Source: Acholoe squamosa (taxonomy: Eukaryota; Annelida; Polychaeta; Phyllodocida; Polynoidae). Taken from it: DNA of 64,000 nt. Each line of letters opens with the position of its first letter. Within the stretch, counting starts at the first letter, position 1. The position numbers and the translations under genes were made by a program. Location of the stretch: the NCBI GenBank assembly GCA_949317995.1, contig OX439042.1, positions 14,549,174-14,613,173 on the forward strand, read 5' to 3'. The notes under the pieces are model-generated. The model was not told where the DNA came from, made no database searches, and was given only the letters and a program-made list of their open reading frames with translations. Shown here piece by piece: positions 7,401 to 41,317 of the stretch.

Positions 7401-10400
7401 CCCACACAGCTACTACCCGTAAGTATCTTATATGAATGACCATGGATATCTAAGCCCGCCTGGATCACGTTTATCGTAAATAAGATCTGGAGCTTGTTTC
7501 AATAGTGTCTATGACAGGTCCAGGCCCCTACGACTTGAGAAGGGCCAAATCTTACCAGGTGATCTTAGGACTTTGGCCATAGTGACTAAATAGCTGGCTA
7601 CATTACTGGGTGATCGTACTGCCTGCTGGCTAAATAGCCACCAGAGCAGTGCCTCAATAAGGGACCCTGGTATGACAACCCTCTGTGTGAATACATAGTG
7701 GGTAGTCGTAGCTCCTGCTGTCTGCACTCCTTTTCTCAAATGCACCCCACCTGTACTCTTTCCTCTGTAACCATGATTGTACTCTATATAATTTGTATAG
7801 ACTAATGCCCTGACCTCAGGCCACTCATAGAGGTTGATGGGCCTTACTATATAGCAAGGTGTTGAAGAGGCTATGTATCTTCAACCTCACGTTGAAGGTA
7901 GAGGAACCTGCTGCCAAATAGAAGCTTTCTGTACAATTTAAAAATATTTCATATTTGTAGGTATATTTGACCACCTATAACAATATGATCCATTTTCATG
8001 ATAATTGACCATGTATGCACCCTTGTAACCAGGTGGGATCACCTATAAATATATAGATACTGTAGCCCTATGCTCATTTGAACAGTAGAGTACAAACCAT
8101 ACTATGGGGGAGGTACGACTGGGCACTATTTAGCCATTTAATATGGGTGCCTGGCCTGTACGACTGGGTGCTATGACTTCATAGTGGTCTGTATGAAGCC
8201 AGCAGTTGAATACATAGCAGGGCCTATTTTGAGGTATGTACTGTAGCTCACAATGTAGTCATTGCTATGGAGCCGTTTCATACACCTCCAACTACGATCT
8301 GTGGGTGTCCTGTCGTGGACACTATTGAAACAAGGTCCAGGTGTTACTAGGATTTAAGATTATAATTGGAACATCAGCTGATGTATGTATGTTGGATAAA
8401 TATAATTGCTTTTAGCAACTTACCATTTGAATCACGGACCTCCAGACTAGGGTGGAAAGATGATGTAAAATGGTATACTCAATGGTAATGGGTCTATACT
8501 CGGTAGTGGTCCATTGAAGTAGAAGAGTCTGAAACAAGGGACGGTCTCAAATAAGTGCTGCAAAGAAGGGGTGTGGACATTTATCTTTAGCACTGAAAAC
8601 AGCATTTAAGTAAATCCCAGCCCCAAATAAGAGACGAGTCACCCTGGTAAACCCCAGTTAAAAATTGTTAGGAGTCATCACTGGGTTTGGGAGACCACTT
8701 CGAATGTGTTTGATGCAGTTGCCATGGTATCATCTTTGTTGTTACACCATTAACTTGTCAATGTATTGAACTCTACCTTCAGGTCTCTGGACAAGTGTTG
8801 GCAGTTGGAGTCAATAGATGCTGACAAAGTGATATTCTTAGAGGTTATTGAGTCGTCACTGGAGCAAGCATATTCCTGTCAGTCAGGGGACTATGTCGAG
8901 GCCCGGGATGGTATGTACTACCATGTGAATGTGTGTCACTTATATATCCTTTCATTTGAATTAGAAGCGGGTATTGTCGTATCTTACAGTTAACGTCAGA
9001 CTTTCCCAAAAGAATCGCTTCCATTCCTAGCACCGTGTTGATTTAAATTAATGGCAGGGAACGTTTTGCATACAAATGTGTATGTTTTAAATAAGATTCT
9101 GACTTTTTGTGTATCAAGTATCGTTTAAGGTATATATAGGCATAACTTTGGTTCAAATTGGAATATTTACAAAACTCTTTCAGATTTATAAAGCCCAGAT
9201 TATCCCCAATGTCTATGTCGCATTTTCCAGGGTCTATGCCGCACGTTTTTTGCGACATTGGGATAGTTGCCCACCCCCGGGTAAAACATGGTGGGCGAGG
9301 GCTGAGTGCATACAATTCTGTCTTAGACATCTCAAGGCAATGTCATTTGATTTACGTATAATACATGCCAGGAATCATGTTTTCCTTTTCTGGACACTTT
9401 TCAAACCTTTCACAAATAGACCATGAACGTCAGTGGATCAATTGACTCGATGAACTAAATCAATATTTTATCCCAAGGTCAAGTGGTGTTTACAGGTCAA
9501 TAGTAAAAAATCAATAACCTATATCCATTATAACCTATGATATTGAATAATTTAGAAACCAGCATTTCAAAGATACCACAGCATTGAAGCTACAGTTATC
9601 TCTAATGACAACCATTCTTTATTCACTCTAGGTCTAAAAATGAAATATGTTGGCTTGTGTATATTGATTCCAAACCATCTAATGATATGATATAACGCTA
9701 TGATTTTCTTTGGTAAATATAGCTTCATCAGTCATCTTAATGGTGTTTGAATATAATTGTGGTATAAATAGGCATTGACTTGCATAGTTCAAACACAGTT
9801 CCCTTTATGGCTTTCATTAATACTTTGGAAGTAATCGAATTCATTGAAAGGGAGAGTCAGTGGGATTCTGGATTCGACAAACAGGGACCAAATTCTGTGA
9901 ACGCTTCCTGTATGGGAAGTGATTTGTGTCGAGATCAACCAACTCTGCTGTTTAGAACAGACTGCTTCCTTTTTGAATTAACATCTACTTCTATTATCTA
10001 TTCAGGTACAGACCCAAGTGATCGGTTACTGGAACGATGGTGTGGGGACAGTTACCCCGATACCGTCACATCCTCTGGGCCCTACCTCCTCCTCCGGCTA
10101 CATACGGACCTGACGGACAGCACCTTCAAAGGCTTTCGGATCCGCTACTCCATCATCGACAAGCCAGTCAGCCCCGGTACTCGTCCCAGACTCAGCATCA
10201 TACTCCTCGCTCTCTGCCTTCTGACTCTACTTCCCTTCCTACCCCTGTCCACAGGGACTATCTCCCACTCAGAGACTCAGCTAGGGTTAGGGAGATGACA
10301 CCAGCTGCCGAGGCTGAGTGGCGAAAACTCTGGTGGGGTGGTGGGTGGAAGATGGTGGAGTTGAGTGAATCTTTCCAGGCTAAACCACAGCTTTGCTGAC

Positions 10401-19127: not shown

Positions 19128-19932
19128 GTCCAGGAGGTTAATTCAAAACATCCTGGGATCCCAACATCAGCGATCTTAGGAATTATTCTACCTTATCCTA
19201 TTAGGCGATCTTAAGATTAGACTGCATTCACATTTCCTAGCCAGCACTAAGAGCGCATTGATCTTAGCCTCAGCCCTCCTACACTATTCCAAGAAGTACT
19301 GACTGGTCACAGGGGTAAGAGTCCCAAAATAAAGGAATAGCTGTGCAGCCACTCTTCTTCACAACAGTGTTTATACCATCGTTCCCTGTCCCCATATGGG
19401 CTAACAAAAGAGCACGGCGTGCAGTTGACCACTGCACAGTATTCAAGAGTTGTTCCCATGAATGTATGATTTATGCTTGCCTATTAGAAGCATTGTGCCC
19501 CCCCCCAGGACAAAGAGAGAGAAGGGAAGAATTACCTTACAGTGCACTTTCTGGACAGGCCTGCAACCACTGCATTACATAGGGTAGACCAGCCAGGTCT
19601 TATGATATGTGCCTACACTAAGATCGCTGCGGTTGGGATCCCAGGATGTTTTGAATTAAGCTCCAGGAGTGTTCCCTGTAAGTGCTCTTGTTCTCAGGTG
19701 AAACCACTATGCAATTCTTTCACTAAGATCGCAGTGATCTTAGTGTTGGAAAAGGAATAGTGAAGTGATCCCAGGACATGCTATTCTTGACAGGCCTGCA
19801 ACCACTGCATTAGATAGGGTAGACTGGCCAGGTCTTATGCTATGTGCCTACACTAAGATCACTGGGGTTGCTGTCCCAGGATGTTTTGAATTAAGCTCCT
19901 GGAGCTTAATTCAAAACATCCTGGGATCCCAA
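19128..19932. repeat. Duplicated and inverted block
   Basis: A segment of about 115 bp beginning GACAGGCCTGCAACCACTG occurs at 19554-19670 and again at 19789-19903. Each copy ends in GGATGTTTTGAATTAAGCTCC. The second runs straight into its own inverted copy, making a long palindrome at about 19870-19932. A further inverted piece lies at 19134-19160. Confidence 0.75.
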
Positions 19933-21206: not shown

Positions 21207-22019
21207 ATGGCAGAGTCAGAATCAGACCTGTTGTCAGATGAGACTGAGGACCTCCTTGTACAGCAGCGGCAAGAACTCATGGCAAAGATTAAACTGTCGC
21301 CATCATTTTGGGCACAGCTTGAGAGACATGAAGTCATCACACAATCAGATATCATTGGCATACAGGTAGGTCAGGCTACTTTTGTGGTAGTTTTATCACA
21401 CAAAAAAGCATTCATATAACACATGACATTATATTTCATATGGAGACATGAATAATTTCTTCTTGAAATTATTTTCATAGGGTTGATCTGAAGACATGCT
21501 TTATGAGTCTATACTGCCACATGATAGAGCAAGGTATTACCTCATATCATCCATCGAGATAAATAGACAAAGGCTCACGAGTGTTGGGTCTGACTGAGGG
21601 TTATCTCACTCGGTTTTGCCTCGTGAGATAACCCTCAGTCAGACTAAAAACTCGTGAACCTTTGTATCTATTTCATGTTATCTTAGTCAGAAATGACCAA
21701 AAATCATTTAAAATCAAATAAAAAGATGATTACCTGTCTTTCATAATTTCCTGTTGATAATTTCAACTATAAATTATGTATTAGCTCCAACCTAACTTAG
21801 AAAAGGGTCTATCCAATGGTATTTTTCATGCAGACCAGCAACGCTGATCCCCTTGCCCAGGTGTTTGAACTGGTAGAGCATTTAATCCAAGGAACCAAGG
21901 CACGATACCAAGGTTTCCTACGGGCACTTATAGACACCCATCAGAACCACATCGTCACTGATGTACTGAAGGAGCGTCGATATCAGCGCTCCCCAATTCC
22001 ACATGAAACACATACAGAG
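21207..22019 (+). CDS. CARD A (two exons)
   Basis: Exon 21207-21365 begins ATGGCAGAG in a good start context and encodes helices 1-3 (LVQQRQELMAKIKLSPSFW, LERHEVITQSDI). Exon 21834-22019 supplies the rest (VFELVEHLIQGTKARYQGFL, then HIVTDVLKE). The intron position is shared by the other three CARD copies, which supports the pairing. The donor at the end of exon 2 (GAG/GTCTGA) is weak; if unused, translation stops at 22025 and gives a free CARD protein. The first exon may be acceptor-joined, because the paralogous exon at 22171 starts at the same ATG directly after TTTAG. Confidence 0.7.
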
Positions 22020-25000
22020 GTCTGAAATCCTACCATCTTCTTGTCAGTACTTATGTTTTAAAGATATTCATATGAATATGTAACAGTGTTTATTTTCAAT
22101 TTGGTCATGCCATTCAATTTCATGAATTCTAGTATTTGCATGTATTATGAACCTTTTTAATGTCCTTTAGATGGCAGAGTCAAACCTGCTTGCAGCTCAT
22201 AATAAGAAGGGTCTCGTGCAAAAGCGACAAGAACTTATGACCAAAATAAGACTGTCTCCATCATTCTGGGCACAACTCGAGAAATATGAGGTTATCATAC
22301 AAGCAGAGATAATTGAAATACAGGTGGGTCAGCCTGTTTTGTTTTTTGTTTGTTTCATTTTTGTTTTTCATTATAAATGGTCAAAAACAGCCTTCATTTT
22401 TAATGGTTTTTAGTATCATATACCTTATGAATGGTCAAAGTGTAATGAGTTTGCGGAATTTATGCATCGACTGAACAGAGAAATAATCTCTGGAATTTTG
22501 CTTTATATACATTTATGCCCATATCGCTTAAAAAATAAAGACGGTCAGCAAGTTCAGCAGGCATTCCTCAATAATGCTAATTGACATTCTTGAGAAATGC
22601 TCTTGAAATTGAAATTTCCCTGATTGATGATGTCAAAGACCACTCTACATGGCCAGAAATGATGGAGTACCATACTGCAATTCAGGCTACGATGGAGTAT
22701 GGTGCCCTATTACCTGGAAGTGCCATATTAGGGACTGGTCATTATTTATCATCAGTGGGGGTGGTAGGTTTGAGGGGAGGCATGAAAATGTTCCCCTCTT
22801 TTTTGGCAAAAAAAGCCAGCCCGATACTTTAGATCAAAGAGGGACGCGAAAAAAATTAAACATCATCAAGGAGGGGGGATTTGTGCGTCTGCAAGAAAAC
22901 CCCACACACCCCTCCTGTTGATAAATAATGACCACTCCCTAAGCCATGTAAAAACTATCTATAAACTATGGCATACAGACTACCAGTGCCAAGGTTTCCT
23001 ACAGGCACAAATAGACACACATCAGTACCACATCATCACTGACATTCTGAGGGAGGACCTCCATCAGCATTATCCAATTCAACAATACAAACCTTCAATG
23101 GTCATTCCCTCTGAACAAGATCTCGAGAATTACTCAGGAATTTCTTGAGTCTCGACTTGTGAATGCAACAAGAATAGAAAACGTGATTTTCCCTGGAAAT
23201 TTGGACACGCCATTACATCTTATACACGAGAAAGTTCTCAAGTCAAAATCTTGAGAATGGCTCGGGAATCTCCTAGGAAATACTCGGGAATTTCTCGGGA
23301 AATACTTGGGATATTCCCAGGAACTGGACATGGTTTTTTTCTCGTGTATAAGATGTTCTGACATGTCCAAATTTCTGGAGATAATCACGTTCTCTTGCCC
23401 AAGTTGTGAATGTTGAGTCCTGTTCAGTGGGATTGTAGATTCAGTTACTTGGATGTTTGGGCAAGATAGTCTGTAAGGTCACTTTCAAGATTTAAATTAT
23501 TTATCATCTTGCCATCGGTGAAATAATCCCATAGCACAGTTTTAGGTGGCCCAGATGTTTAGTAACGTGTTTTAGGTTCCCCAGACACGTAGCACCCAAA
23601 AGCTATTGCTAGATTTACTGCACTAAAAATGGTCAGTGCGGATGTAAAATCACAATAATAGTAAGTCAAATTTAAAAGTGATTTTAAATTTGATTTTCAC
23701 AGCTTTGATTTCACAGCTGCAGATATCACTAAGATTCCTGCATGTTTACATTTTTTAGACGGATGGTGCATTTAATCCACCTTGGAGAGATAAGGTGCGT
23801 CTACTCAAACAAAAGACACTAGCTCTGGTAGAACACATCCATATATCACAACAGTTGTGGGACTCCCTGATGAACAACCATGTATTGTCCCGCTTAGAAG
23901 TACAGGTATTCCAGGTAATCAGCACTTAAAATCCTTCTACAATAGTTTGTTTGTCCATGAGATCATTTCTAAACATGCTAGTAGCAGGTCTTTCATGTCG
24001 TAACAGAAATCCCATAGAAATAGCCCAGAAATTCGAAGTCTTGGAGCTGGGTGCTATCGTAGTACCTTAAGAAAGGCCCCCAGGCCTCATCTCAAACAGT
24101 TAGTCTGCATTATGAAGCAGTACACTGCAAAAATGGTGTTTAGACCCTAAACACAATTCTAAACATATTCTTGCAACGTTTTTGTAATCACATTAATTTC
24201 CTTAACATGTTTAGCCAAACAATGTGCTTAGCTCAAGTGTTTAGAAATGTAGGTGTTTAGGTTAAAACTTTGTGTTTAGATATATGAATTTTTGTGTTTA
24301 GGTGTTTATGAATTTTTGTGTTTAGATGTTTAAATGATTTTATGGAGAGTTAAGGTTTGCAGACATATATGCATTGAAAAACAGAGATATATTTTTCTTC
24401 TCATTTACTGGGGGGGGGACATCAGCAGATATTTACTTGTCAAAGTCTCCAAAGATGTCAGCCACAGCTATATACGTGTACACACTGCATCAGAATGAGA
24501 GACTTGAGAAAGTACAACAGCTTGGCAGGAAGGACATTGCCTTATCTATTCGAGAATAACATCAAATAGGTGTCAGTCATGGAGTTTATTGATTATTTTA
24601 TGCTAATGATGGTGGCATGAAGTGAATCTAGTCAATTTTCTATTGCCCTTTCTATTTACATGATATTCTATTAATGAAACCATGATAAACATGGGATTTG
24701 GGGACATTTGTCACAACAATTGATTATAACTGTGTGCAGATAGTCCAGTCAAAGGTAGTGTTGCTACCTGGTGTGGATTCAACATCCAAGTATCTCAACA
24801 TATTGATGTTTGAATCTAAACACCTATTATTCAACTGTCTCAACTCTAAACATCTAAACATGTTTAGCGTAAATGTTTATGTAGTTAGAATAAAAGTGTT
24901 CGTCAATGTATGCCAATCCAGCCTGTTTTCCTCGAAATCAGATCATGACCAGCATAGCAATTCAGAGGTTAAGATGGGTCGCGGCCATTGAATCAAAGTC

Positions 25001-28000
25001 CTCAAAATTCCTTCAATCCTTTGGGCAGAGGTACTTTAAATCATCTAGAATAAAAATTTAAAAGGAGTAGTAGGGTCCCATGCTGCTTTTTTTAACATCG
25101 AAATTTGAAAATAAAATCATTTTGATTTTTACCTCGAAATTAGAAAGAGATTGTCTCAGACTTGAGAATTCTTTTTCTGTCATATTCACAGAGAGTTGAA
25201 ACTTTACATTAAAAACGTTTTGATATCCTTGTTGGGACACTATCTGACACCTGTCAGGACACTATCCCCTAAAAGTGGCATTAAAGCACAAATGACATTA
25301 AATCACAAATTGCATTATCCCACAAACAAGACACTATCTCACAAATGGTGCTCGTTTGAGGGATAGTGTCACCTGTCAGGGACACTCTCCCTCCAAACAG
25401 GCATTAACATACAAATGACATTAAGCCACAAATGACACTAACCTACAAGTGAGGCACTATCCAACAAATGAGACATTCAATAGGTCTTAAGATTATTGGG
25501 CTAGAGGGCTGGGGCACATATTAAAACACAAATGGCATTAACCCACAAAAAAGATACTCACAAATCCCTCAAAATAATGAAACATTATCCCTAAAATGGG
25601 TTACTTGAGGGAAAGTGGCATATGTAGGGACATAATCTGACTAAACCATAAATAACACTAACAAACTAGAAGGTCAGTGTTATTTGTAATTTAATTAAGA
25701 GATGGTGTCCCTAAATATGCCACTACCCCCCAGGTGGTACTTGTGTGTCTAATGAGACGGTAGAGAAAGCCTGACTACTGCATGTTCCAGGCAACTGGAG
25801 CAATATTTGAAAGCTCAAGTATTTTGCTGGCCTGGACTTACTGCATGTGGAAAAATAAGCAAAGACAGAAAAGGATACTAGGTGGCACAAGGAGTGTATC
25901 CAAGCACTTGCAAGTATATGTCCAGCTCACACTACATAAACGGTACCAAACTGTAGATTAAGTCCTGCCCAGGAGTTTGATTGTGAACTAAAGCAGTACC
26001 TGTTAGAAGGACAATAACCCATTTGTGTTGTTAAATTAACTGTCAATGTCCTCCTTTCAGCACAGAGCATTGAACCGAAAAATTATAAACATACCCTGAC
26101 CTTTTCAATAAAAGAAACTTCTTTCAAATTAGGGATCGACCCCCTGACCATACAATATATTTCATTTCAGAATAATGGAAAAGCCCCACCCTCTGAACAA
26201 ATTGTAAACCTAATTGATCATGTCAAAAGAGGAAACAAGAGGACGTATCGTGGATTCCTGTATGCTCTTTCAGAGACTGACCAATTACATGTTACAAAAG
26301 ATATCCTAGGTGAGGATGTACCTGGCCTCTTCATGTTAGATGATAAAAAGGTAAGTATATATTACCCCCGTAGCTCTTCAATATGCTGGCATTGTGTTCA
26401 GATCCTTAATGCAATTTTAATCACACTCTTGCAACGTTTTTGTATGTTATCACGATAAATTCCTAAATATGTTCAGTTATGTTTAGCTCGATCGTATGTT
26501 GAGTATAGGTCGTCAAGAGCTAAAGGCTTCTGCTTAGACAACTTTGGAATAATTCTTTAGGTTATAAATATATTTAATCATGAGAAACATTATTTAGGGA
26601 AGACGATAATATATATGCATACGGACAGTGTCCAAAGCACACTATAAACAAATATTAGCACCAACAGAAAAAGTGTCAGAGATTCATGACCAGTTAAACT
26701 GACAGAGTACAACACACTGGCCGAAGAGTCATTTCTATATCTGAACACCTTTTGCATTTGTAAACAATGCAGCAACAGTTATATTCATAGAGCATATATA
26801 TCCATAGATCATATATGTGATCAAACAACTCGAAATGATGGGCCAATGATGTGGTCATATACATTATACTTCGTTACTTATTAGGGCCACAGTGAGGCCC
26901 AGCCACTGACAGATCGGAAGAGGCGAGTACTGATGGAAGGCAAACCCATTCTAATGAAAAAGATACACCTCACTTCCAACATGTGTCACTTGTTAGAAAA
27001 ATATAAAGCAATATCAAGAGACTTACTCGGAGAATACAAGGTATGTTACATATGTACCTAGCACTATGCACTAGCCACCACTAGCACTAGCAACTATGAA
27101 CTCCAGATATATCTTTCTGACTACAATAATTCAAACTCTGCTAAGCATTATGTTTTTCCTTCTCACATGAAGAGATGTAGGACAAGAGTTCCATTACAAA
27201 CATACATACGGAATTACCAGGCATGCTTTTTTGTCCTGGTTATGGTGGATGCCTGAGGGTATAGAAAACCACACCAGCAAAAATTAGCTACAGGTATATC
27301 AGAGTATTGCATGAATAAAATACATCTTTCATGTTCGAAGATGCTACATGAAGGTACACTTACTTCATGATCACCAAATTGTGACACTCTAAACAGCGAG
27401 ATGGTGAAAAGTTAATTACTAAATAAATATTTTCAATGAAAGAATTCCTCTTTCAGGATCAACCAATGGCAGTTCAAGTCGAGGCTATTTTACATTCCCT
27501 CCATACAGGCACCACACAACAATACCATGGGTTCATCCGATCACTACTTGAATCAGGCCAGAGGCACATTGCTGAAGATATCCTGGGAGAAGATGCCAGT
27601 TCCTACTGCATGGCAAATATGGGTATGCATGAGCAAGTCGTTAAGATTTATAGGCAATAACTAATGTCTATGCGAAGGTTCCTAAGCCATAAGCCGTCTC
27701 TGTGCAGGTTTAGCCGTCCCATAACATCTAGCAATCTAAAAGACATCGTCATTTTAGCTAATCAAGACTAGTACCCATGCGCTATGATTCTCTCCTCTGG
27801 GTCGAACGACTATAGAGACTATCACGTTAGTACATATCAGGGGAAGTCTGGAGATGCTGGACAATTAGGAATGAATATTGTAAAAAATGGAATGAAGGTA
27901 ACAGGGCGCAGGTTTCAGAACTACTGGAAACTAAAGTATAATTGTCGAGCTTCAACTTCCCTTCAACTTCAAATGTTCAGGCCTAAAAAAAATGTTTGTT

Positions 28001-31000
28001 TCCAGTTACCCGACCGACCCTACCATATTAGGGCCAAAATTATTTTTGGTTTAATTTTGAGATTTTTTAAGATTTTTTCCTGAATTTCCATCCGTTTTTC
28101 ATGTTTTTTCCCATTTTTCTTAATTTTCTATCTATTTTTCTACGGATCTTTCCCTTTACAGAGGTCTTAATTACAAACCCCAAGCTGCATGCTGCGATAA
28201 GAAATCTGAGAGAAGAGTACAACAACAACCTGTTCAAGTCTCCTCTGTATGCCTTCAGTGCCATGTCTGAGGAGATAGACCTTCAGAATGTCTACACACC
28301 ACTGGACATCACAGAAACCCAAATGTATGGTGAGAAAAAGAAGTAAGTACACTTTAAATCAAAGTCATAACCATTGATTCATATGGGTCAATCCACTGAA
28401 AGTGGGCACTTGTCCATGGTAGAGGGTCATTTTTAAAAACTAAGAATTAGATCATGAAACTTAATTTTATTGATAGCCCTATATCTTGGCTCTTAGGAAA
28501 GGTTCATTCAAGTCACTAACTCCCAAGCGGTCAGTTTTTATTGCAAATATTCAAAATTATGAAAATGTAATGGGCGTGAGCAAAATGAATTCTTCTCTAC
28601 ATCACAGAAATATTTGTGAGAACTACATGATTTTCAGTTAGGATGTTTGACAAAAGGTCCCAAAGACACACTATGAAGAAAATAGGAAAAAAGATGGATA
28701 TTTACAATACATAAGGAAATAATATGAATGTAATGGGCGTGAGCGTAATGGGCGTGAGCAAAACAACTTTCCCAGGCTTCAGACAGCAACTCAGCAACAT
28801 AACCTCACCCAGAATTATTCTAGGCAATAAAAATAATCTAAGAATACTTATAGGATGCATTTGGAATGCATCAGGCCTGCCAACATGCTTGCAGTGCATT
28901 TTACTCACGCCCATTACGCTCACGCCCATTACGCTCACGCCCATTACATCTGTCAGTTAACCCCTCTTTTTGGCATAACCAAGGCATGTAGAGACTCCAG
29001 TCTTTTTTTAAAATGACTTATTAACAATAGATCTTCAAGTTAGACTGGTTGAAAGAAAGAAAACTTTGATAGTATTTGTCCTGGATGCAGAAATTTGAAT
29101 GTAATGGGCGTGAGAAAAATGGACTTGAAAATACTTGAATATGTACTGCACAGTCATGCCTGCAAGTAGACCCTAAGTTTCTGTACCAGAAAATCCCCTA
29201 TGATGACCCTAATCTTGGTGGGAAATAAGAAGATTGAGGGTAGTGTTTTAGTAAGCCTACCAGTGTACTTTCATTTTGCTCACGCCCATTACAGCACCTG
29301 TATTTGGTTATAGAAATGAACAGGGGAAAAGGAATGCCAACCAGAGCACCTCCAAACAACATGAAAATGTTAGATAGGACCCCCCACTAAAGAATAGATA
29401 AAATTATATTGGTCTGTTGCTGTTTGGCTTGGTGGTATAGACCCTGGAATGAGGTGGAAATTGAATAAAAAGGCAATTTTCGGCCATTTTTGAACTTTGG
29501 GCCACCATATCTAAAAAAATAGCAGGCCGACATATGTAAACTTGCCCTTCTTTTGAAGCCCAAGGTGTTTTCTTTGAAATGAAACCAGAAATAAGAAGAA
29601 TGGTTACTTACTTCTTATTTTACAGCCCCCTGTATCCAAAAAAGACCAAAAAAGACCCAGGTGCCCACTTTCGGTGGATTGACCCATATACATGTATACC
29701 TGAGGAGCTGTGTATGACATCAGGAGGGCATTTCTCAATAATGCTAATTAACATTTTTAAGAAATGCGCTCCAGAACAACTGAGCAATTAAGACCTCACA
29801 TAAGGTATACAGCCTGTGCGAGATGAACCTAGTGAGCCTCATCTATAAGCAAAGGTCGGGGTGTGTCTTACATTAGAAGATTTTAAACTGTAAAGCAGTA
29901 CTAAAACGACCAAGATTCAACTCTACTCATCCTTGTAGGATAGGCCTGAGTTAGCGGTGCGCAATATGTGCAAAGTATATATTTTATGTGGGCAGTACTC
30001 TCCATTGTTTTCTATTCATATGTTTTCTGTTTTAGGAGTGTAGCCTGATTTCTTAATATGGTACGACTAAATCCACTGTGATATAAAAAAAAACCGTCAT
30101 AATCAGAGTTGATAAACATATAGATAGAACTAAACGACCGTGGTGTACGAGGTGGTCGATCCACCACGAGGGAGTTGTCTCCCCCGAGGGCTAACGCCCT
30201 CGGGGGAGACAACTCCCGAGGGGTGGATCGGCCACCGAGGACACCAGGGGAGTTTAGTTCTATATTTATTTTATGTTTTTAGAGGTTTAAATAAGGAAAA
30301 ATTATCAAAATCCGTTACCGTAGTTCACCGCACGAGCGCCGGTCCGCCATTTTGAATGTTTACACGCAGCCAGAACGAGGCTGCAGTGGTGGATCTGCCG
30401 CTGTGGTGGATCGACACACCTTACGCCACTGGGGGTGTGGCGATCGGCTCCGCAATGCTATCTCTACGGGAAGAAGTTATTCACATAAAATAAAAGTATA
30501 ATGCACTACGACTGCTCTGCACAATCAGTACATGATGTAATAATTACATAGGCCTTGGTAGAACAGTCGTACCAGTGCAGTCAATCGTGACCACTTGATG
30601 CTTGGCTGTAATGGCATTAGGGCGAGGGATCCTACGATTTGAATGTCTCTTATCGTACCATCTTGAGAATTGCTTCACAGTAAAATTCGCTTGATTCTTT
30701 GGGTATACTAATCTAAAGTAAATGGCTCTTATTATTTCTTATTTAGTGTTAAAATACAGGAAGGCGATGTACTAAAAGATGGATTCCACCACAGGGCACT
30801 GACCCTGTGCACAGGAGATGCCGGCTCAGGGAAAAGCACCCTCGCCACTCGACTCACCTGGCTGTGGGCAAAGCAGGGGTTTGACACTTCTTGCTTCTTG
30901 ATGAAGATCAAGGCTGTAATCTTTATAGAGCACACTGTTAAAGGAAGCAGTCTGAAAGACATCATCAAGAACTCCAAACCAGGGGATAAAGTCTACAAAG

Positions 31001-34000
31001 GATTGATCTGGGACCTGCTTAATGATGAGCCAGAAAATGTTCTACTGATTGTTGAAGCTTTGGACCAATTCAGAGATGAATCAGTCAAAGAAGCTCTTCA
31101 GTTTGTAATAAGCCGGGGAGAAACAAATGTGTTTATCACAGTGCGAACAGACTCTTCATGTTTAACGCCAGCATTTCTGTCTCAATTCAAACAACACATC
31201 AGGATTCATGGCTTCACACAGAACAATCGAGTTGATTTTGCCAGGAAGTTGCTTCAGGAGATGAACTGTAAACGAGATGTAGCAGGGCTCCTGGAAACAA
31301 TTGGTGGAAAGCCAAAGTTTGAGGCCAACCCACTGAACATCATGCTTGCCTGCCAGTTGTATGCAGAGGGCACAGTACCTGATAAAGTACTAGATGTGTT
31401 AACGGAAGTGGAGTTGTACTGCAAGACTGAGGAAAGACTTGTTGAAAGAGAGCTTCTAAAAAGACAGCAGGTGAATGAGAAAGAGCTTATTGAAAGAAGA
31501 AGTGAAGCTCTAGAGAATCTACATAATCTTGCTGCGTTCATCATTTTGCAACAGAGGTTGACCTGTGATAATTCAGAGTATTCAGAATTCTTCAAAAATG
31601 AAATAGAAACACCTGCAAAGATTTTGCTACAAGAGAAACAAGGTTCATCTGCAACATTTGGATACCAGCATTACTGGATTTGGCCTCATCCTCGTCTACA
31701 GGAGTTTGATGCAGCGATGGCATTCGCAAAAATGGAAGATTTTAAAAGCAGTGAATTGCTTCAACTAGTTGTAACCAGACCTGACCTGAATCCAGTCACA
31801 AAGCTAGTGTCTGCACTACTTGGTAAGGATCGCAAATATGATGAAGTAGATTTTCTGATGAGAGCAACCATCATTCTTCAGGGCAATGCCATTTGCCAAA
31901 TTCACCTCAGGGAAGACACAGGGTCATCTTGCCCATGTAAAAGGATTGCCCATATAAAACGTAGACTTAACCAGTTGGACATAGGAAAAGGGCTATTGGA
32001 CAGAACTACAGGAGCGATTTGCCTTCCAGACCTTGCTTCAATCTATTGCTGCTGTGGGAGTGCCTTCAATGATAATATCAAACTGTTCCAGCATATTCAG
32101 TATTGCCTGAATGTAGGCCTTTCTACAGATCATCAGGAGATCTTCTACCAAGCAACACACTCAGTGCTTTATCCAGCCAAGGACAGGTGTGACATGTCTT
32201 AGTTAACTACTTTATTTGGTTTGATCCAAGTGATTCTAGCAAAATTCACGTATGAGGACGTATGACTATGGGTATTACCAATTCCAAGAAACTATTCGGT
32301 AAAACATACAATGGTCGTTTCGGTAGAGATGATCCAAAAGCACTTTATAATGGCAGCATCCACATTATACAGCATTGGAAGCAGCTTTTAAATATGCAAT
32401 ACAAGTGGGATCGACAATCCTAAATTGTCTATTAGCAGTGTGCTAATGCTACATATATTTTGATTTATTATTACATTATTTCAGATCTGACAATGGTACT
32501 GTACACCTTGTCCTGAACAATCCTAGTAAGTGGACTCAAGTCCTGGAGCGAGAGGAGTATTCCCATACTGCTGTTGTGGAAATTCATTTGGTGCAAGCAT
32601 GGGCCAATAGATCGAAAATACCAGAACCGGATGAGCTACAGAATGCTGTTACTCAAATACTGGATGATGTGGTACCAGTGTTAATCCGAATTCACTGGTT
32701 TAGTACTGCAGGTTCACCACCAAGTAGTCTGGTATGCATTGTTAATGAGAGGAAATATCTGGTGCATTCCCATCAGAATGTGTGGATCATCTGGATAAGG
32801 TAAGAAATACTTCTAACACTATAGTACATTTGTGCCCTCCTCCCCCAAGTAAGAAGCTATCCATTGATAACGTCAGCAAAGCTGCCTTATTAATGGTTGA
32901 TCAGATCACTATGATTGGAGGAATCTTTAATCAATTAGGACTTATCCAGGTAAATCTACATAGCAAATATCGAGATGGTATGTAACACTTCCACAAATGC
33001 ATTATGTTTTCTTCTTGTAGTGGCCATGACTGGCAAGTATCTCAGAAGGCGATACATGGTGCTCCCCGATATGTCTATATCATACAGGCCCATGAAGACC
33101 AACTTGAAGTCATGGTCCACAGAATCGTAGACATACTGCATTTGGCTCCAGAATATCTTCAAGTGCCAAATTTGGTCATTCTTGTTGGAGACCCTTTGAC
33201 AACGTCCTACTACGGTCCTCAACCTGAGGAGTCCCCATCAGATTGGCAGAATGCTATAATGCATATCGTGAAGACTGTTGTGCCTGAAAAGCTTACAATA
33301 GCCAGCTCAGCAGCTGGAATGCTAGAGAATGCAATCACTGAAGAGATCACTTAAATAAGGCAGACCTATGGATGCTACACTCTGATATATCTCCATGAGC
33401 GATCCATGGAATTTAAAAAAATGTGAGTAAACCGATTTGCAATAAATCAGGTGTTGGGGGTATATCTAGTTGCTGGACAATATTAACCTAGCATAGCATT
33501 GATAATCATTCCAGTTCTAAGATAAAGTAAGGAAGTCCGTATGATACTGCATGAAGTCCTCAAAGCTGTAAGCATGTGCTGCTCATTACTCCGAATAATT
33601 TGAATGAGAATTTTTATTTCCATTCCACACTGTGTTTAGATTTTTATAAGTATATTTCTGACAGGAAAAGCTGGCGCAGAGATGTAGCAGGTGTCCCAAT
33701 AGACATCTACCAGAAACCTAATGGCTGTCTTGTTATAAGACCTCAATGTCTTACTGACATTCACAAATTGACAAAGAGTCACATCTTTTCTGCTGATGCA
33801 GAAGACGTACCTGAAGTCCAGTTGCTCGTACCAAAATGTGATGAATCATCACTACACATTCGTCTCAAAGGCTGCCTCAAGCACTTGGTGTCTTCCTGTA
33901 AAGTTGATGATTATCTCATCATCCAGAGCAAACCAAATGATGATGGGTCAGATATATCCTTCATGATGGTTGACAGTGAATCACTGTGCATTGGAGAGGA

Positions 34001-37000
34001 ACACTTTCACGTCCGCAGAAAATATGGTACAGTCCAGATTCAAAGGTCAGTTATGTAACCATTTAAATTACTTTTGTAGGTACTGTTTCTGATTTTGCGA
34101 AACTTAAGGGCACATTTGGAATTAATTGAAACATGAAGTGTATACAAAGACAACAAAGCAATTTATCAAATCGCTATTACAGCGTAAAGCATTTGAATCA
34201 TTAATTCCCTATCATTGTGATTTCAGATCTCGCACTAAAGATAAGGCTAAGGCTGTGATTCAAAATGGTGATGACCACATCTTGGTTAACGTACATCATC
34301 CTCAGGATCTGTATCTCATCACTAGAAAAAGGGAATATCTCAGGAAGCCAACAATGACTCTTCTTCTCAATGGCACGACAGATGAAGACAAGAAGCTTAC
34401 TGTTGTCGCAACACAGCAGGCTGTGTGGCACAGCCTGAAGTTTTGGCAGCCCCAGGAACTGGTATTGGCAGGAATATCAGCTGATGTCAGTGAAATGCTT
34501 CAGTCTGATCCTGCTGTGGGGCAGCTAATGCAGCGCTGTGGCTTTAAGATTGTTCTTGATGATGAAAAAAGACTTCATTACAAGTGCATGTGAGACTTCA
34601 AACATTTTTCATCTATTCACTTTGATATGTAGTGGGAATGTTAGTCAAAGGCCTTTACCCACTCCCCTTTTTAAAAAAATACCTTTGTGTGGTTGGCATT
34701 TCTCAAGATGCGGGACTTGAGATTTCAAAGTCACCCTGGAAGGTTCCTGTACGAGTACATGACAGTTTCGTCAAAAAAAAGTGATCGTAATATTATGCAA
34801 AGTTGGAATACACATAAAACCAGACATCCTCAAAACAATCTTAACGTTGGTGTTTGTTTAGTTATCATAATGTCTCCAGTCATACCACCATAGAACTGAG
34901 TGTATTATTTCCACCCCCACTGTGTAAAGTAGTGCGTAAAGTAGAATCCATTTGGTACAACTAGCCTAGAGGCGTTCACGGGCTTCCCTAGCCCACTTAA
35001 AAGGGTCTATTTCTCCTCTTTCCTATCCCCTCAGGATGTGTGTGGTGCACATATGCGTGGGCACTGACACATTCCTCTGTTAAATTATCAACCTGTGAAG
35101 CACGGGATAGCCACTTAGTGCCGCTAAAGTGCTGTAAAACACAAATCAATCAATAGAGGCGTTCAGTGTCTTACTGGGACCTGGGTGTCTGTAGTCGGAA
35201 CATATTTAGGTATGCCCTCCTGATGTTTAGATAGAGTCATGCAGATTTATGACATTTTCAATTTCAGATCAGAGATGAGTGACAGATATATACTGGAGGA
35301 TATAGATGACTGTATCAAGATACAAGTCGATGACTTCTGGGGCATGTTGGATATAACCTGTCCCAATCGCTGCTTCAGGAAACCTTGGCTAACTGTCACC
35401 TTCAGAATCCCACCAGACTTGATCCACACAACCCCTGCAGAGCTACAGTAGGCTTTAATGTATATACTGCAGGTTTGGAGACCAAAGCAACTCACACTGG
35501 AGCAATTGACTGCAGCCATAGCTGAAACTTTCAATTCTACAGCGGCTGTCAGTGATTTCAGGGATAGGTGTGGCTATGAAGTAATGTCTGCCAATGACGA
35601 TGGAGTCTGTTTCAGAGAACTGTAAGAATATGTGATGAGATTATTTGTGTGACCGGTATTAATGTTTAAGTGTTAAACTGATAGATTTATCAATTATTCC
35701 ATGTGTAATGCAACAGTCACTATGCTCACACTTCATGATTTGGGAATACTCTACCACTATAGAGAGCGATCATGCTGACTCATCAGATATGTATCAATTT
35801 GATATGGTCTGTTGACCTGGCATAAAGATTTAATGTGTTTCTTGCTCATATAAAAGAAATTCATATCATCCATAGAATCATTACACAGTTTGTAGACCCA
35901 TATAACAGTTCAGATTCCAAAACGTAAGCTCTTTTTTCATCTTCAGGTTTGAATTGAACCAGGTAAATGACACCATTTACATACGGGTGTCAAAAATTGA
36001 GAATGTGATGTCTGTTGTATGTAAAATGGAATACATTAAGAATCAGCTACTGACAGTCCACTCCACAGACACAGATGGGACAACAGATACAGATATACAA
36101 CTTGTTTTGTGTCATCTTCTCAAATCATGGCAGCCGGTCGAGTTGCTAGTGGAAACCTGTCTACACAACATCTTCCACCCAAGCATTGTCACTGAGATTG
36201 CCGTCAAGAATGGTTATGACGTCATATCGAATACCATAGATCACCTGTGCATGTGAGTCCTTGTCTAAATTGTTTCTCATTTAATCTGGAATTTTACCCA
36301 TGAGGGCCAGTCGTGTATCAACGTATCCATACATGACTCCAGCACTGGTAAGTCCAATGCTGCATTGATATGACTCGACCAACCAGAGGGCTTATACATT
36401 CTGCAATGCCAGGATTGTATTTATACATTCTACTGAAGTTGAGGGTCAGTCCCTATGGAAAAACAATACATATTCTGTGCTTGCTTGTCCAGGCAAGATG
36501 TCGTAAAACCTCCCACGGCTCATATGCATGGATACCCCTTGGACTTGGTGCACCTTATAGAGGATATCATAAGTTAGGGGGTGCCTTATATTTTGCTTAG
36601 AACAATATGTATTCTTTTCATCGTTGTACCACATGATTGTGAGTAACTAATCTCTTATGGGAACAGGTCACTGACCTTATAATGATAATTCTTGACTCTG
36701 ATGTATGTTCAGTTGTATGAATTTGACTATTTACAGCAGACACAAACTACACGCAACCTGGCCAAGCTATGCCGCAGGAGTAGTCATTGCTTCCAGTATG
36801 CTTTTGTCATTGGTTGTCCCTGGAGATGCCCTTCCTGCACTTACGCTATTTGCAATATGGTCAAAGGTCTTCTCCCGGCGTACTGAGATGTGGAGATGGT
36901 GGTGGTATATGCTACCATTTGTGATAATGCTACCCAGGGAGGCAGTCAGCGGAGCGTTTGGAGAGTTAACAAGCTGGAGACAGTGGTTGATAGCTACAGG

Positions 37001-37781
37001 AGGAACAGGGGTAGTGACATCATGGCAGAATGGATGGGGGAGACCGCGTGTGTGGTTGGTGGGTGCAGCTGTAGTCATTGCAGCAGGAATGTGTCAAGAG
37101 GGTTGGTTCAAGCTCCTTTATTGGGTTCTAAGACTGAGCATACCAGAAGCACTTCCACTGTCAACAGCAGGTCCAGGCATGGTGATGGCATTTTGGCTTA
37201 TTGTTAAATATGGTAGCAAACCACTTCTACAGGACAACATACAAATCTGGACGTGGCCATTAGTCAATGAAGTACTGTTGGTTAACAAGATGGGAACAGG
37301 TCTCCTATCGCGTTTGACGAGAATCCTATTGATAGTAGCTGTGTTGAGCTCCTGTCTACCTATTACCGAGGACTCCTGGTGGAGCTGGGTAGCATTCACG
37401 TGTGTGGTGGCAGCTGTAGAGGCAGCAGGCTTTTACAAGATCAGCTGTGGTGTCATGTATATAACAGAAGTGTGGTATACGGGACATACAATAAGCAGCC
37501 TCCAGCTCCCACCATTTCTGTACTATAGCCTACAGACCTACAGGACTGCATTCCTGGTGCTCTATTTGACATTACGTTGGTCGGAGGAGCGTCCTGACTG
37601 GCAAGCACCAGGAGGCTGGTTCAATGTACAGTGGGTATTTGTAAGGCACCAGTTTGTGATGTTCATGTATGTCAGTAGCTGTAATAATACCTGGTTCTGG
37701 TGGCTGTCATTGCCTGTGGCTTTGTGTTTGGATTGGTACCAAGGCAAGAAGTATCAAAAGTGGTTAGCCAACTTTCCATAA
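21207..37781 (+). CDS. CARD-NACHT receptor (NLR type) with C-terminal polytopic membrane domain
   Basis: Exons: 21207-21365, 21834-22019, 22171-22323, 23759-23905 (or 23914), 26171-26350, 26885-27040, 27457-27622, 28162-28342, 30747-32186, 32485-32799, 33021-33422, 33665-34045, 34227-34589, 35268-35621, 35947-36252 and 36737-37781. Phases agree at every junction. Order: CARDs, linker, NACHT ATPase, six module exons of unknown fold, then a region of about 348 residues with roughly nine hydrophobic segments. NLRs are STAND ATPases that oligomerise on danger or microbial signals; CARDs recruit partners by homotypic contact. No leucine-rich repeats are seen. In-frame stops lie at 33352-33354 and 35449-35451; both exons can be skipped without loss of frame. 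Whether the gene makes the full protein, several isoforms or is decaying cannot be told from DNA. It could also be two adjacent genes, though the phase match at 36252/36737 argues for one. Confidence 0.75.
21560..21685. repeat. Foldback hairpin in the CARD A intron
   Basis: Arms share TCTGACTGAGGGTTATCTCA and its complement, with outer parts ATAAATAGACAAAGG and CCTTTGTATCTATTT. The loop is about 15 bp. Confidence 0.7.
22171..23147 (+). pseudogene. CARD B, decayed copy
   Basis: The first-half exon at 22171-22323 is intact and very close to CARD A (IRLSPSFWAQLEKYEV), with a good donor CAG/GTGGGT. The second half near 22930-23147 is recognisable from CQGFLQAQIDTHQYHIITD but its 5' part has diverged. 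I see no in-phase acceptor, and repeat-like sequence fills the intron. Skipping both pieces keeps frame because all CARD exons are phase 0. Confidence 0.65.
23150..23425. mobile_element. Foldback MITE, copy 1
   Basis: The ends share AAATTTGGACA and CATCTTATACACGAGAAA with their complements, separated by TCTCGGGAATTTC-type repeats. A partial copy lies at 58850-59005 (CAGGAACTGGACAT, GTATAAGATGTTCTG, TCCAAATTTC). Confidence 0.7.
23759..26350 (+). CDS. CARD C (two exons)
   Basis: Exon 23759-23905 encodes KQKTLALVEHIHISQQLWDS and HVLSRLEVQ. Two donors nine bases apart (after 23905 or 23914) both keep phase 0. Exon 26171-26350 encodes EQIVNLIDHVKRGNKRTYRG and VTKDILGEDVPG, ending in a good GTAAGT donor. 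It is more diverged from CARD A than CARD B is. The intervening intron holds the 24.1-24.9 kb and 25.2-25.7 kb repeats. Confidence 0.75.
24125..24900. repeat. Region rich in GTGTTTAG/CTAAACAC motifs
   Basis: Many copies of TGTTTAG occur at 24138-24340 and of its complement at 24810-24870, suggesting the two ends of a decayed inverted-repeat element. A related stretch sharing TCTTGCAACGTTTTTGTA lies at 26390-26480. No coding. Confidence 0.5.
25240..25720. repeat. Degenerate tandem repeat (ACAAATGACATTAA type)
   Basis: A loose repeat of about 18-20 bp, with steps such as CACAAATGACATTAA and GGACACTATC, fills about 480 bp of the CARD C intron. The CTATC and GATAG versions lie on both strands. 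Confidence 0.6.
26885..27622 (+). CDS. CARD D (two exons)
   Basis: Exon 26885-27040 encodes GKPILMKKIHLTSNMCHLLE and the YKAISRDLLGEYK end. Exon 27457-27622 encodes AVQVEAILHSLHTGTTQQYH and RHIAEDILGEDA. The second donor is phase 1 (ATGG/GTATGC), which fits the linker exon at 28162 and marks the end of the CARD array. Helix pattern and intron position match the other copies. Confidence 0.75.
28162..28342 (+). CDS. Linker exon before NACHT
   Basis: About 60 residues including LHAAIRNLREEYNNNLFKSP and IDLQNVYTPLDITE. A short block of this style precedes the nucleotide-binding domain in other invertebrate NACHT proteins. The acceptor CTTTACAG and donor AA/GTAAGT are strong and both phases match the neighbours. 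Between it and the NACHT exon lie 2.4 kb of transposon-rich intron. Confidence 0.7.
28566..29293. mobile_element. Nested inverted-repeat elements with TGTAATGGGCGTGAGC ends
   Basis: The outer ends at 28566 and 29293 share TGTAATGGGCGTGAGCAAAA in inverted orientation. An inner pair runs from 28729 to 28948, with the motif doubled on the left and tripled on the right. A lone forward copy starts at 29100. This looks like one element inserted into another of the same family, in the intron before NACHT. Confidence 0.75.
30125..30489 (+). mobile_element. Hairpin-bearing dispersed element, copy 1
   Basis: Begins AGAACTAAACGACCGTGGTG and includes a GC-rich hairpin (CCCGAGGGCTAACGCCCTCGG at its centre). 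An almost identical copy lies in reverse orientation at 58254-58590. The open frames through it on either strand come from the transposon and are not taken as genes. Confidence 0.8.
30515..30680. repeat. Dispersed repeat ending in TCGTACCATCTTGAGAA
   Basis: Shares blocks such as TTGGTAGAACAGTCGTACCA and CGTACCATCTTGAGAA with 60140-60310 and 62500-62722, and shorter pieces near 62380-62430. Probably a MITE family; it sits directly before the NACHT exon. Confidence 0.6.
30747..32186 (+). CDS. NACHT (STAND ATPase) exon
   Basis: One exon of 480 codons. The Walker A motif GDAGSGKST lies at 30814-30840. The Walker B position reads ENVLLIVEALDQF at about 31033-31071, where most NACHT proteins have a D-G-L-D-E type motif, so the first acidic residue is Glu. 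The sensor-like strand VFITVRTDS keeps its arginine, and FTQNNRVDFARKLL and NPLNIMLACQLY match the following helical parts. The rest is helical, with KTEERLVERELLKRQQVNEK probably coiled. The frame runs on to TAG at 32202, but the donor GGACAG/GTGTGA at 32186 joins in phase to 32485. Confidence 0.85.
32485..33422 (+). CDS. Module exons 1 and 2; exon 2 has an in-frame stop
   Basis: Exon 32485-32799 encodes SDNGTVHLVLNNPSKWTQVL and a predicted beta-rich region. Exon 33021-33422 encodes GHDWQVSQKAIHGAPRYVYI onward. In the second exon TAA at 33352-33354 interrupts the frame, yet the downstream part (IRQTYGCYTLIYLHERSMEF) still aligns with the end of the sister module at 34227 and leads to a donor AT/GTGAGT in the shared phase 2. 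So the stop sits inside a module exon rather than at a gene end. I do not recognise the module family. Confidence 0.6.
33665..34589 (+). CDS. Module exons 3 and 4
   Basis: Exon 33665-34045 (WRRDVAGVPIDIYQKPNG) and exon 34227-34589 (RTKDKAKAVIQNGDDHILVN) are both open throughout and both phase 2 at each end. Each is about 120-127 residues. The WHSLKFWQPQELVLAG segment in exon 4 recurs in the next two exons as a W-x-P-x-E/Q-L motif, the clearest sign that these exons are tandem duplicates. Splice sites are good (CTGACAG, AG/GTCAGT, TTTCAG, AT/GTGAGA). No known domain is recognised. Confidence 0.65.
34967..35165 (+). mobile_element. Short retroposon with 12-bp target-site duplication
   Basis: TAGAGGCGTTCA at 34967-34978 is repeated exactly at 35154-35165. 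The 175 bp between ends in GCTGTAAAACACAAATCAATC-like sequence, the type of 3' tail seen in SINEs and 5'-truncated LINEs. It lies in an intron of the NLR module region. Confidence 0.75.
35268..35621 (+). CDS. Module exon 5, with an in-frame stop
   Basis: The exon has a good acceptor (AATTTCAG) and a donor CT/GTAAGA in phase 2. TAG at 35449-35451 interrupts it exactly in the middle of the module. The sequence after the stop (ALMYILQVWRPKQLTLEQL) aligns with the W-x-P-x-E-L motif of exons 4 and 6. The 354-nt length is in frame, so skipping the exon keeps the downstream frame. Confidence 0.6.
35947..36252 (+). CDS. Module exon 6
   Basis: Open throughout, 102 codons, starting LFELNQVNDTIYIRVS and containing LLKSWQPVELLVETC, the shared module motif. 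The donor ATGT-type AT/GTGAGT gives phase 2, which fits the membrane exon at 36737. It is shorter at the N-terminal side than the other modules. Confidence 0.65.
36737..37781 (+). CDS. Terminal exon: multi-pass membrane domain
   Basis: A single 1045-nt exon with acceptor TTTACAG, phase 2. It encodes about nine hydrophobic segments, among them AAGVVIASSMLLSLVV, VWLVGAAVVIAAGM, ILLIVAVLSSCLPI, WVAFTCVVAAVEAAGF and WFWWLSLPVALCLDW. They are joined by short loops rich in Trp and Arg/Lys; the end is KKYQKWLANFP. I do not recognise a transporter or receptor family. An in-frame ATG at 36705 could start a separate small gene, but it lies in the pyrimidine tract of the acceptor. A multi-pass domain is not a usual part of NLRs. 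Confidence 0.65.
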
Positions 37782-39235: not shown

Positions 39236-41317
39236 ATGTCACGCAAAAGAAAACAGGTTGAGATGGAGGCACAGGCGCAGTCTATAGAAGAGGAAAGTCT
39301 GCAGAATCTGAGGAACCTGGCAGCCTATGTCATCATGGATGATGACTTGGATGATGACTACATTTTGCGTAACCACAAGGTGCAGAGGTCACACATGTTT
39401 TGGATGCACCCATATCTGCGTTCAAGGAAGGAGGAAAGGATGAAAAGATCCCTTGCCAGGCTGGAAGAGGATTTCCTGAGGGTGAGAAATTTTTATGCTG
39501 TTTTACCCGTACATTTATATTCATTCCCATGTCACAGGTCAATGTCTACATAAGGCCTAGTCTCATGCCTCTATTATTTTTTATTTTCATGGAATTAAAA
39601 CATATCAATAAAAATAATTGGCTATGTGCTGAAAAACAATTTCAGAAGCACACTCATGAGATGGAGTGTATATGGACCCCTATGTAAAAAAGAGTCATCT
39701 CTTTATAAACCAGATACCTAAAAAAATACATTTTCTGGCTTTAATATATTTTTTGCCTTATTTCCAGCTTGGTTGCATTTCTGAGTTCAAGAAGACCACA
39801 CGCATGTCACCAGAGGTGTACAAGGACCTGCTAGAGATGGTGCGACCGTACATCACATACCAGGACACATCTTTCCGTGATGCAGTCACAGCTGAGGAGA
39901 GGTTGAGCTTGACTATCAGGTATCTGACACGAGGTAAGAAGTTTGAGTCTGTACAGACACAAAAGTGTGAAATTTTTCCTTCTCGTTTATATCTTGTTCA
40001 AAAACAGAAGAATACATTTTGTTTTATTTATGGCCAAAAAGTTGTGAGTTGCTTAACATAAAAATAATTTAATTAACTTTACACAATATTTCAGTCAATA
40101 GTTTTTAATTATGTGTTTTCCTCTCCAGGAGACAGTGTTACGACTCTTCACCAGGGTTACCTGGTAGGTGAGTCAACGGTGCTACCCGTGGTGAGAGACA
40201 CTTGCAAAGCCATCTTCAGAGCCTTGCATGAAACATACTTGAAGGTATGTGTCTTTAGACTAACTTTATGATCCCCCCCAAAATAAAAAAAAAAAATTAA
40301 AGGAACCACTTTAACACTGTCTGTGACATGATAATAGACCTTTCATTCCATATAGAAATCTTCTATCAAAAAAAAATTCCTGAAGTATGAGTGTGCGAGT
40401 AAAAGAATTACCCTTCTGCAGAAGCACAAGTCAAAGCCTGCTTCTATCTGACTGTAATTTTGTTTTTTATGTTTCAGCCGCCTACCACGAGGGATGACTG
40501 GTTAGCCATAGCCAAAGGGTACCATGACAAGTGGAACATGCCACATGTACTGGGTTCTTTGGATGGGAAGCATATCCGCATAAAGAAGCCAAAGAAGTCT
40601 GGTTCGAACTATTACAATTACAAAGGATATTACAGCATAATTCTGTTTGCCTTAGTAGATGCAGACTATAAGTTCACATATGTGGATGTCGGAGGGGAAG
40701 GTAAAGCATCAGATAGCACTATTTGGAAGTACTCCTCTTTTGCTCAGGATATTGATGCCCCAGGTAACCCCCTTAATGTGCCAGAACCCTCAACTTTTCC
40801 AGGCTTCAACAGGGAGTTGCCCTATCATTTTCTTGCTGATGACGCATTCGAGATGAGTGAGAGACTTATGAAGCCATATCCCTCCACCAAACTCACCCCC
40901 CAGCAGAGGATATTCAACTACCGCCTGAGCAGGTCTAGACGGTGTGTGGAGAACGCCTTTGGGATCCTGGCCACTCGTTTCAGGATTTTCCGCCGAGAAA
41001 TAGAAATGGCTCCAGAAAATGTGGACATTATAGTACTGGCATGTGTGGCTCTGCATAATTACCTTAGAACAGTGGCCCCAGGAGTATACCTTCCGAAGGA
41101 AGCTTGCGACTGGGAGGGGAAAGACTACAAACAGCACAAAGGTCTGTGGCGTGCAGAGAAGGTCCTCCCAGGCGGAAAGCCTACTACTGTACGCAACCGA
41201 TCAGACAGGGTCAAGATAATGAGGAACAATCTCGCGGGATGGTGTCTGACCAAGGAGGGAGAACTTCCAAAACAGTGGGACGTTATTATGCAACATGACT
41301 TCTACTTTGAGCGCTAA
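39236..41317 (+). CDS. HARBI1-like DDE transposase (Harbinger)
   Basis: Four exons: 39236-39481, 39768-39933, 40129-40244 and 40478-41317, all junctions in phase, giving about 455 residues without a stop. The N-terminal part is acidic with an RKRK patch; exon 2 has FKKTTRMSPEVYKDLLEMV, a helical pre-domain typical of the family; exon 3 gives the helix-turn-helix-like LHQGYLVGESTV. The catalytic domain has Asp at 40562-40564 (SLDGKH), Asp at 40841-40843 (LADDAF) and Glu at 40949-40951 (CVENAFG). It cuts and pastes the element by DDE chemistry and usually needs the MADF/Myb-like partner for nuclear import and DNA binding. With an intact frame it may be recent or active. The start was chosen at the first ATG after the subterminal repeats. 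Confidence 0.9.

Follow-up and report, generated by a model that had tools for sequence, protein, structure and literature searches.

Can a NACHT receptor be held in a membrane by its own C-terminus? Animal NLRs are generally treated as cytosolic. The window, as the whole analysed stretch of 64,000 nucleotides from the annelid Acholoe squamosa is called here (GCA_949317995.1, contig OX439042.1, positions 14,549,174 to 14,613,173), carries on its + strand two Pfam-supported CARDs, a third CARD-like repeat, a linker, a NACHT exon, six module exons and a polytopic exon (Table 1), which a first-pass annotation had joined into one receptor gene. All of these exons could be located, with consistent phases: phase 0 applies among the CARD exons up to the last donor, phase 1 on entering the linker and phase 2 from the linker to the end, and all junctions are in phase. 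The locus is best read as a member of a small annelid CARD-NACHT receptor family with a sensor region of tandem alpha/beta modules. The probability that this is a family of membrane-anchored sensors, the window copy possibly decaying or alternatively spliced, is put at roughly 0.65, and the underlying genomic fusion of the membrane exon with the CARD-NACHT gene is, in our judgement, very probable.

The membrane exon and its counterpart on C8

Among the 347 residues encoded by the final exon are 29 tryptophans and 41 charged ones. On the octanol scale, 12 windows of 19 residues lie at zero or above, two of them at 0.3 or less, with 7 hydrophobic windows by GES and 5 by Kyte-Doolittle at cut-offs of our own; the earlier count of roughly nine segments is thus a fair one. 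Among the controls for the octanol scale, the NACHT exon gave 5 windows (highest 3.9) and modules 4, 6 and 3 gave 1, 1 and 0. Given the local stop frequency, the open frame of 359 codons found at this exon has a probability of 2.5e-9 per start. Splice sites were scored with self-made, approximate weights for the metazoan consensus. By this measure the donor at 36252 ranks in the top 1.1% of the 3860 GTs in the window and the acceptor at 36737 in the top 4.9% of the 4091 AGs; the score of the latter, 2.34, beats 12 of 27 best-in-phase acceptors in relatives (range -2.5 to 7.3). The first-pass annotation had considered every junction to be in phase with usable sites, which stands for the phases and for 36252/36737; the donors after CARD 1, the third CARD repeat and module 5 are weak.

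The evidence that ties the membrane exon to the NACHT gene comes from a second locus in the same genome (own assembly, 1.48 Gb; contigs are designated C8, C9 and so on). In a search of the whole genome the exon matched itself alone at E<=0.001, and at E<=10 it reached four further places (E 0.009, 0.033, 0.52 and 3.9), the second and third of which contain internal stops. The best of these and the one convincing relative of the exon, C8:67979198-67979515, shares its strand with the NACHT relative at C8:67952517, whose match starts 26.6 kb upstream of it; by our own arithmetic, a random hit would fall on the correct strand and no more than 30 kb downstream of any of the six close relatives with a probability of about 6e-5. 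A 3 kb stretch read there (L049) contains a module exon at 464-844 with the donor CAT|GTAAGC, which jackhmmer places in the module family, followed 514 bp later (484 bp in the window) by a phase-2 acceptor at L049:1359, which opens a frame of 162 codons that ends at a TAA or at a phase-2 donor. A reciprocal genome search with this frame returned, besides the frame itself, the window exon alone below E 0.1 (E 1.9e-5) and one more match at E 0.9. Module exon, intron of about 500 bp and membrane exon therefore follow one another at two loci.

The two membrane exons align locally with 32% identity over 107 residues (score 149; across 1000 shuffles the score averaged 44 and never exceeded 90, and the reversed sequence scored 46), and BLASTP with composition adjustment gave 27% over 125 residues (E 4e-4). 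The stretch ALTLFAIW...MWRWWWY of the window pairs with ALILFTIW...KWSWWWW on C8, and the part common to both exons comprises the first four hydrophobic segments, those on C8 being strong. Between the two genes, module 4 is 31% identical, like the membrane exon, and the NACHT exon is higher, at 56%. Identity at third, first and second codon positions is 45%, 47% and 57% in the membrane exon and 48%, 69% and 77% in the NACHT exon; as this contrast is weaker than in NACHT, selection on the membrane exon is suggested, not strongly shown. That a related membrane exon with a phase-2 acceptor again stands about 500 bp behind a module exon argues for fusion more than for chance, and a chance neighbour, in our judgement, would not reproduce phase, spacing and context at such divergence. 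The membrane exon had been placed by the first-pass annotation in the CARD-NACHT gene, a claim to which the second locus lends support; recurrence of the fusion, which that annotation asked for in other genomes, is thus seen within this one genome.

Several observations weigh against a membrane-anchored family. The match on C8 is weak by itself at E 0.009, and another place, with two internal stops, reaches E 0.033. The membrane part on C8 is a short one, and the 3.66 kb beyond it yielded no second half. In addition, 16 kb separate the module next to it from the other modules of the C8 gene, and these hold retrotransposon-like frames plus 5.3 kb unread, so that only position and strand tie it to the C8 NACHT gene. 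Pairwise BLAST does not rank the L049 module first for module 6 of the window, and the same position within the array is therefore not established. At five of the six close NACHT relatives (7-20 kb read each) the membrane exon was not found. Profile searches and structure prediction of the membrane domain, both proposed at the outset, gave no family match and a poor model: there was no Pfam match up to E 5, the best PDB match was at E 1.4, and AlphaFold2, from a two-sequence alignment, returned a mostly helical model with a predicted local distance difference test score (pLDDT) of 37 and a predicted template modelling score (pTM) of 0.28. NCBIfam yielded one match of 54 residues (E 0.001; 19.5 bits against a cut-off of 70), and the peptide patterns of the domain had no match in viral contigs. 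Lastly, the window copy has two nonsense codons, in modules 2 and 5.

Premature stops and competing explanations

The full window model runs to 1930 codons, and its stops fall at codons 1091, 1423 and 1930. Its treatment as one translatable gene had overlooked the stops in two of the six modules, owing to which the full-length product as drawn is untranslatable. The paralogue modules corresponding to modules 2 and 5 are open, and no good in-phase donor lies ahead of either stop in the stretches scanned (best scores -8.4 and -0.7). Since the module exons all have symmetric phases (2-2), leaving out modules 2 and 5 preserves the frame, and the model without them is a single open frame of 1677 residues; such skipping is formally possible, as far as the exon phases indicate. 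The window copy of the membrane NLR gene may thus be decaying or alternatively spliced, and the odds that it makes a working protein are about even.

That the membrane-NLR family is real but the window copy a decaying pseudogene, yielding no functional protein, is a serious contender, to which we give somewhat less than an even chance. The nonsense codons are joined on this side by the three weak donors and by an orphan CARD half, with a damaged second half near 22984-23110 (read by eye). Decay is also seen elsewhere in the family, in a module with a TAA at C8:67916941-67917282 on the minus strand and at the C12:77709762 relative, where no module exons were found and retrotransposon-like frames (by eye) begin about 6.7 kb past the NACHT match start. 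Set against this, NACHT, modules 1, 3, 4 and 6 and all 347 codons of the membrane exon are open, and both stop-bearing exons are symmetric, so the frame survives skipping. Synonymous codon choice in the membrane exon exceeds the non-coding expectation (z 3.6), which is weak evidence, as a different frame does better (9.3 vs 6.7) and the full codon score comes out negative, at -15.3.

If the family is one of membrane-anchored CARD-NACHT sensors, the membrane domain would anchor the C-terminus of the receptor in a membrane, with the modules, NACHT and CARDs remaining in the cytosol. Binding of ligand by the modules would lead the NACHT to oligomerise in the plane of the membrane, and the assembled CARDs would recruit a CARD caspase or adaptor; NACHT oligomerisation as trigger and CARD contact as output are suggested by analogy. 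The window copy would be expected to yield an intact protein only with modules 2 and 5 spliced out, and to be decaying otherwise. The function may then be retained by the C8 relative at 67.95 Mb, whose membrane part is shorter, with about four segments.

Most likely, the exon supplies a membrane anchor. The polytopic domain could do more than anchor and work as an effector, with NACHT oligomerisation switching a channel or transporter, which we regard as unlikely. The hydrophobic segments, some 5-12 according to the scale used, go beyond the needs of an anchor, and channel activity of oligomerising NLRs is established in plants; on the other side, no channel family was matched in Pfam, NCBIfam or PDB, and the anchor is favoured mainly because the C8 paralogue shows only about four segments. 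More doubtful still is a NACHT receptor with a built-in channel or transporter, in which module sensing and oligomerisation would gate the C-terminal effector while the CARDs signal in parallel.

The weakest alternative, that the membrane exon forms a gene of its own behind the NACHT gene, could draw on two in-frame ATGs a short way ahead of the acceptor (36705 and 36717) and on the five relatives at which no such exon was found, yet it is very improbable, as the same-phase arrangement of module, short intron and membrane exon recurs behind another NACHT exon although the membrane exons are only 32% identical, the intron is short and free of AATAAA and ATTAAA behind an intact module 6 donor, and both ATGs, with T at -3 and an out-of-frame ATG at 36701, make poor start sites for an independent gene.

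Gene anatomy, relatives and surroundings

Table 1. Exons, intron and signal of the window gene (window positions), with the close NACHT relatives in the same genome
Feature	Position	Strand	Remarks
CARD 1, first half	21207-21365	+	likely start ATG; relatives in paralogue stretches L032, L035
CARD 1, second half	21834-22019	+	weak donor GAG|GTCTGA
Surplus copy of CARD first-half exon	22171-22323	+	no intact second half seen
Second CARD, first half	23759-23914	+	
Second CARD, second half	26171-26350	+	
Third CARD-like repeat, first half	26885-27040	+	phase 0-0
Third CARD-like repeat, second half	27457-27622	+	weak donor TGG|GTATGC; tblastn relation to other CARD second halves
Linker exon	28162-28342	+	phase 1-2; 64-69% identity in three relatives
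NACHT ATPase exon	30747-32186	+	phase 2-2; Pfam NACHT E 2e-13, above cut-off
Module 1 exon	32485-32799	+	phase 2-2; 52% and 39% identity in two paralogues
Module 2 exon	33021-33422	+	phase 2-2; in-frame TAA 33352-33354; paralogue copies open
Module 3 exon	33665-34045	+	phase 2-2
Module 4 exon	34227-34589	+	phase 2-2; alpha/beta fold model
Module 5 exon	35268-35621	+	phase 2-2; in-frame TAG 35449-35451; weak donor
Module 6 exon	35947-36252	+	phase 2-2; donor CAT|GTGAGT
Intron, module 6 to membrane exon	36253-36736	+	484 bp; no AATAAA or ATTAAA
Terminal exon, predicted polytopic membrane domain	36737-37781	+	347 codons; stop TAA
AATAAA	37961-37966	+	first such signal past the membrane-exon stop, 180 nt on
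Close NACHT relative	C12:58845472		56% identity
Close NACHT relative	C8:67952517		56% identity
Close NACHT relative	C9:13840563		39% identity
Close NACHT relative	C12:63719395	minus	37% identity
Close NACHT relative	C12:77709762		38% identity
Close NACHT relative, fragment	C12:58822658		

When the two halves of each CARD are joined, Pfam recognises CARD 1 at E 2.4e-5 and the second CARD at E 1.6e-11; the closest solved structures to the latter include the caspase-9 and NOD1 CARDs (E 0.004 to 0.13). The joined third pair had no Pfam match. The N-terminus, MAESESDLLSDE, is not hydrophobic, as judged without a signal-peptide predictor. In one relative, the linker gave a weak FISNA match below the cut-off (E 0.052).

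The modules comprise roughly 100-130 residues each, are alpha/beta in character and lie on symmetric exons. A model of module 4 built from 20 aligned copies (pLDDT 87, pTM 0.80) is mixed alpha/beta, in the order strand-strand-helix-helix-strand-long helix-strand-helix-helix-strand-strand, a predicted fold that differs from the leucine-rich repeat pattern. A Pfam scan of 20 module copies for leucine-rich repeats gave one weak LRR_Zer-1 match only (E 0.15), modules 1 and 3 had no Pfam family up to E 5, and sequence searches of the array against PDB and Pfam returned chance-level matches only. Module 3 has six genome matches at E<=0.1, its own among them, and all six fall within or next to NACHT-matching loci. 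Symmetric phase-2 exons show how such arrays could grow, shrink or splice around dead modules. The longest array seen, at L038 (C9:13840563-13850562), has twelve module-like frames after NACHT, some partial, and is good material for the study of array growth.

The NACHT exon has at least 38 matches at E<=0.001 in the genome, itself included, and six relatives besides itself fall below 1e-40. From the start of the NACHT match, 20 kb were read at five of these and about 7 kb at the fragment. CARD and linker exons precede NACHT in all three of the six relatives with upstream sequence read, and module exons follow it in five of the six. At three loci (L045-L047) from among the 31 more distant NACHT matches there was no membrane-exon match, and the remaining distant ones were covered by the genome-wide searches alone. 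A 24-residue match to the membrane domain 18 kb downstream of the C9 relative (E 0.019) was rejected, since it weakened to E 0.91 with a two-sequence profile and fell among chance matches. Near the C8 paralogue, C8:67916237-67919499 on the minus strand contains a NACHT fragment, a 55%-identical module and a second module with an in-frame TAA, and looks like a decaying inverted neighbour. The source of the DNA had initially been taken for a cephalochordate; the mitochondrial contig C63 points to an annelid, with the order nad3, trnS, nad2, cox1, trnN, cox2, trnD, atp8, trnY, cox3 (protein genes named from translations), which we take to be the annelid arrangement.

Other features of the window lie outside the gene. 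A transposase frame at 40403-41314 on the + strand (Pfam DDE_Tnp_4, E 6.1e-34), presumably HARBI1-like, begins about 2.6 kb past the membrane exon, and a frame at 9768-10295 on the + strand matches a CUB domain (E 9.8e-5). A dispersed repeat with the near-identical peptide SCSHECMIYACLLEALCPPP occurs at 19319-19760 and at about 2465-2770 of L049, and hence also downstream of the membrane exon of the C8 paralogue. A minisatellite-like repeat at about 50034-51042 gives long repetitive reading frames on both strands, and the GC skew around it (50001-52000) is 0.33.

Comparison with known NLRs

Under a strict definition, an NLR has a death-fold domain, NACHT and leucine-rich repeats. The window gene has an N-terminal death-fold domain, recognised as Pfam CARD in two of three exon pairs, and NACHT; C-terminal leucine-rich repeats were not found in a scan that left module 5 outside. 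A C-terminal polytopic domain, if kept in two paralogues, would be a further case of a membrane-integrated NLR, constructed in another way, in a lophotrochozoan and with a non-LRR sensor array. It would open a direct test of whether a NACHT sensor works within the membrane, and of whether its membrane part is anchor or effector.

CARD-NACHT-LRR (NLRC-type) receptors are reported in tubeworm, oyster, abalone and lingula, among others (PMC11508797). These resemble the window gene in combining N-terminal CARDs and NACHT in one protein, and differ from it in having leucine-rich repeats, in place of which it has an alpha/beta module array and then a polytopic membrane exon, no such repeats being detected. 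The first-pass annotation had called a polytopic membrane C-terminus, which would keep the sensor permanently in a membrane, an unfamiliar arrangement; this was too strong in so far as membrane-bound NLRs are already published, from sponges (PMC12909245) and from anthozoans (PMC5094078). The anthozoan proteins, with 3-5 transmembrane domains at the N-terminus, are described as possibly membrane-bound. They would share a predicted membrane binding through several hydrophobic segments with the window gene, for which the genomic junction and the second locus point to such segments in one protein with NACHT; in the window gene, however, these segments sit in the last exon, at the C-terminus instead of the N-terminus, and in another phylum, a distinction drawn from description, not from sequence. 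In sponges, NLRs of Dysidea avara with transmembrane domains are proposed to be membrane-bound in PMC12909245, through whose citation the case of Amphimedon is also known. The likeness to the window gene is again that of NACHT proteins proposed to be membrane-bound, although the sponge proteins are NACHT-LRR proteins and the window gene has no detected leucine-rich repeat. A C-terminal polytopic domain on a CARD-NACHT protein was not encountered in the open-licence literature, as judged mostly from listings. Membrane NLRs as such are therefore already known, and what is new is the C-terminal polytopic domain behind a non-LRR alpha/beta module array.

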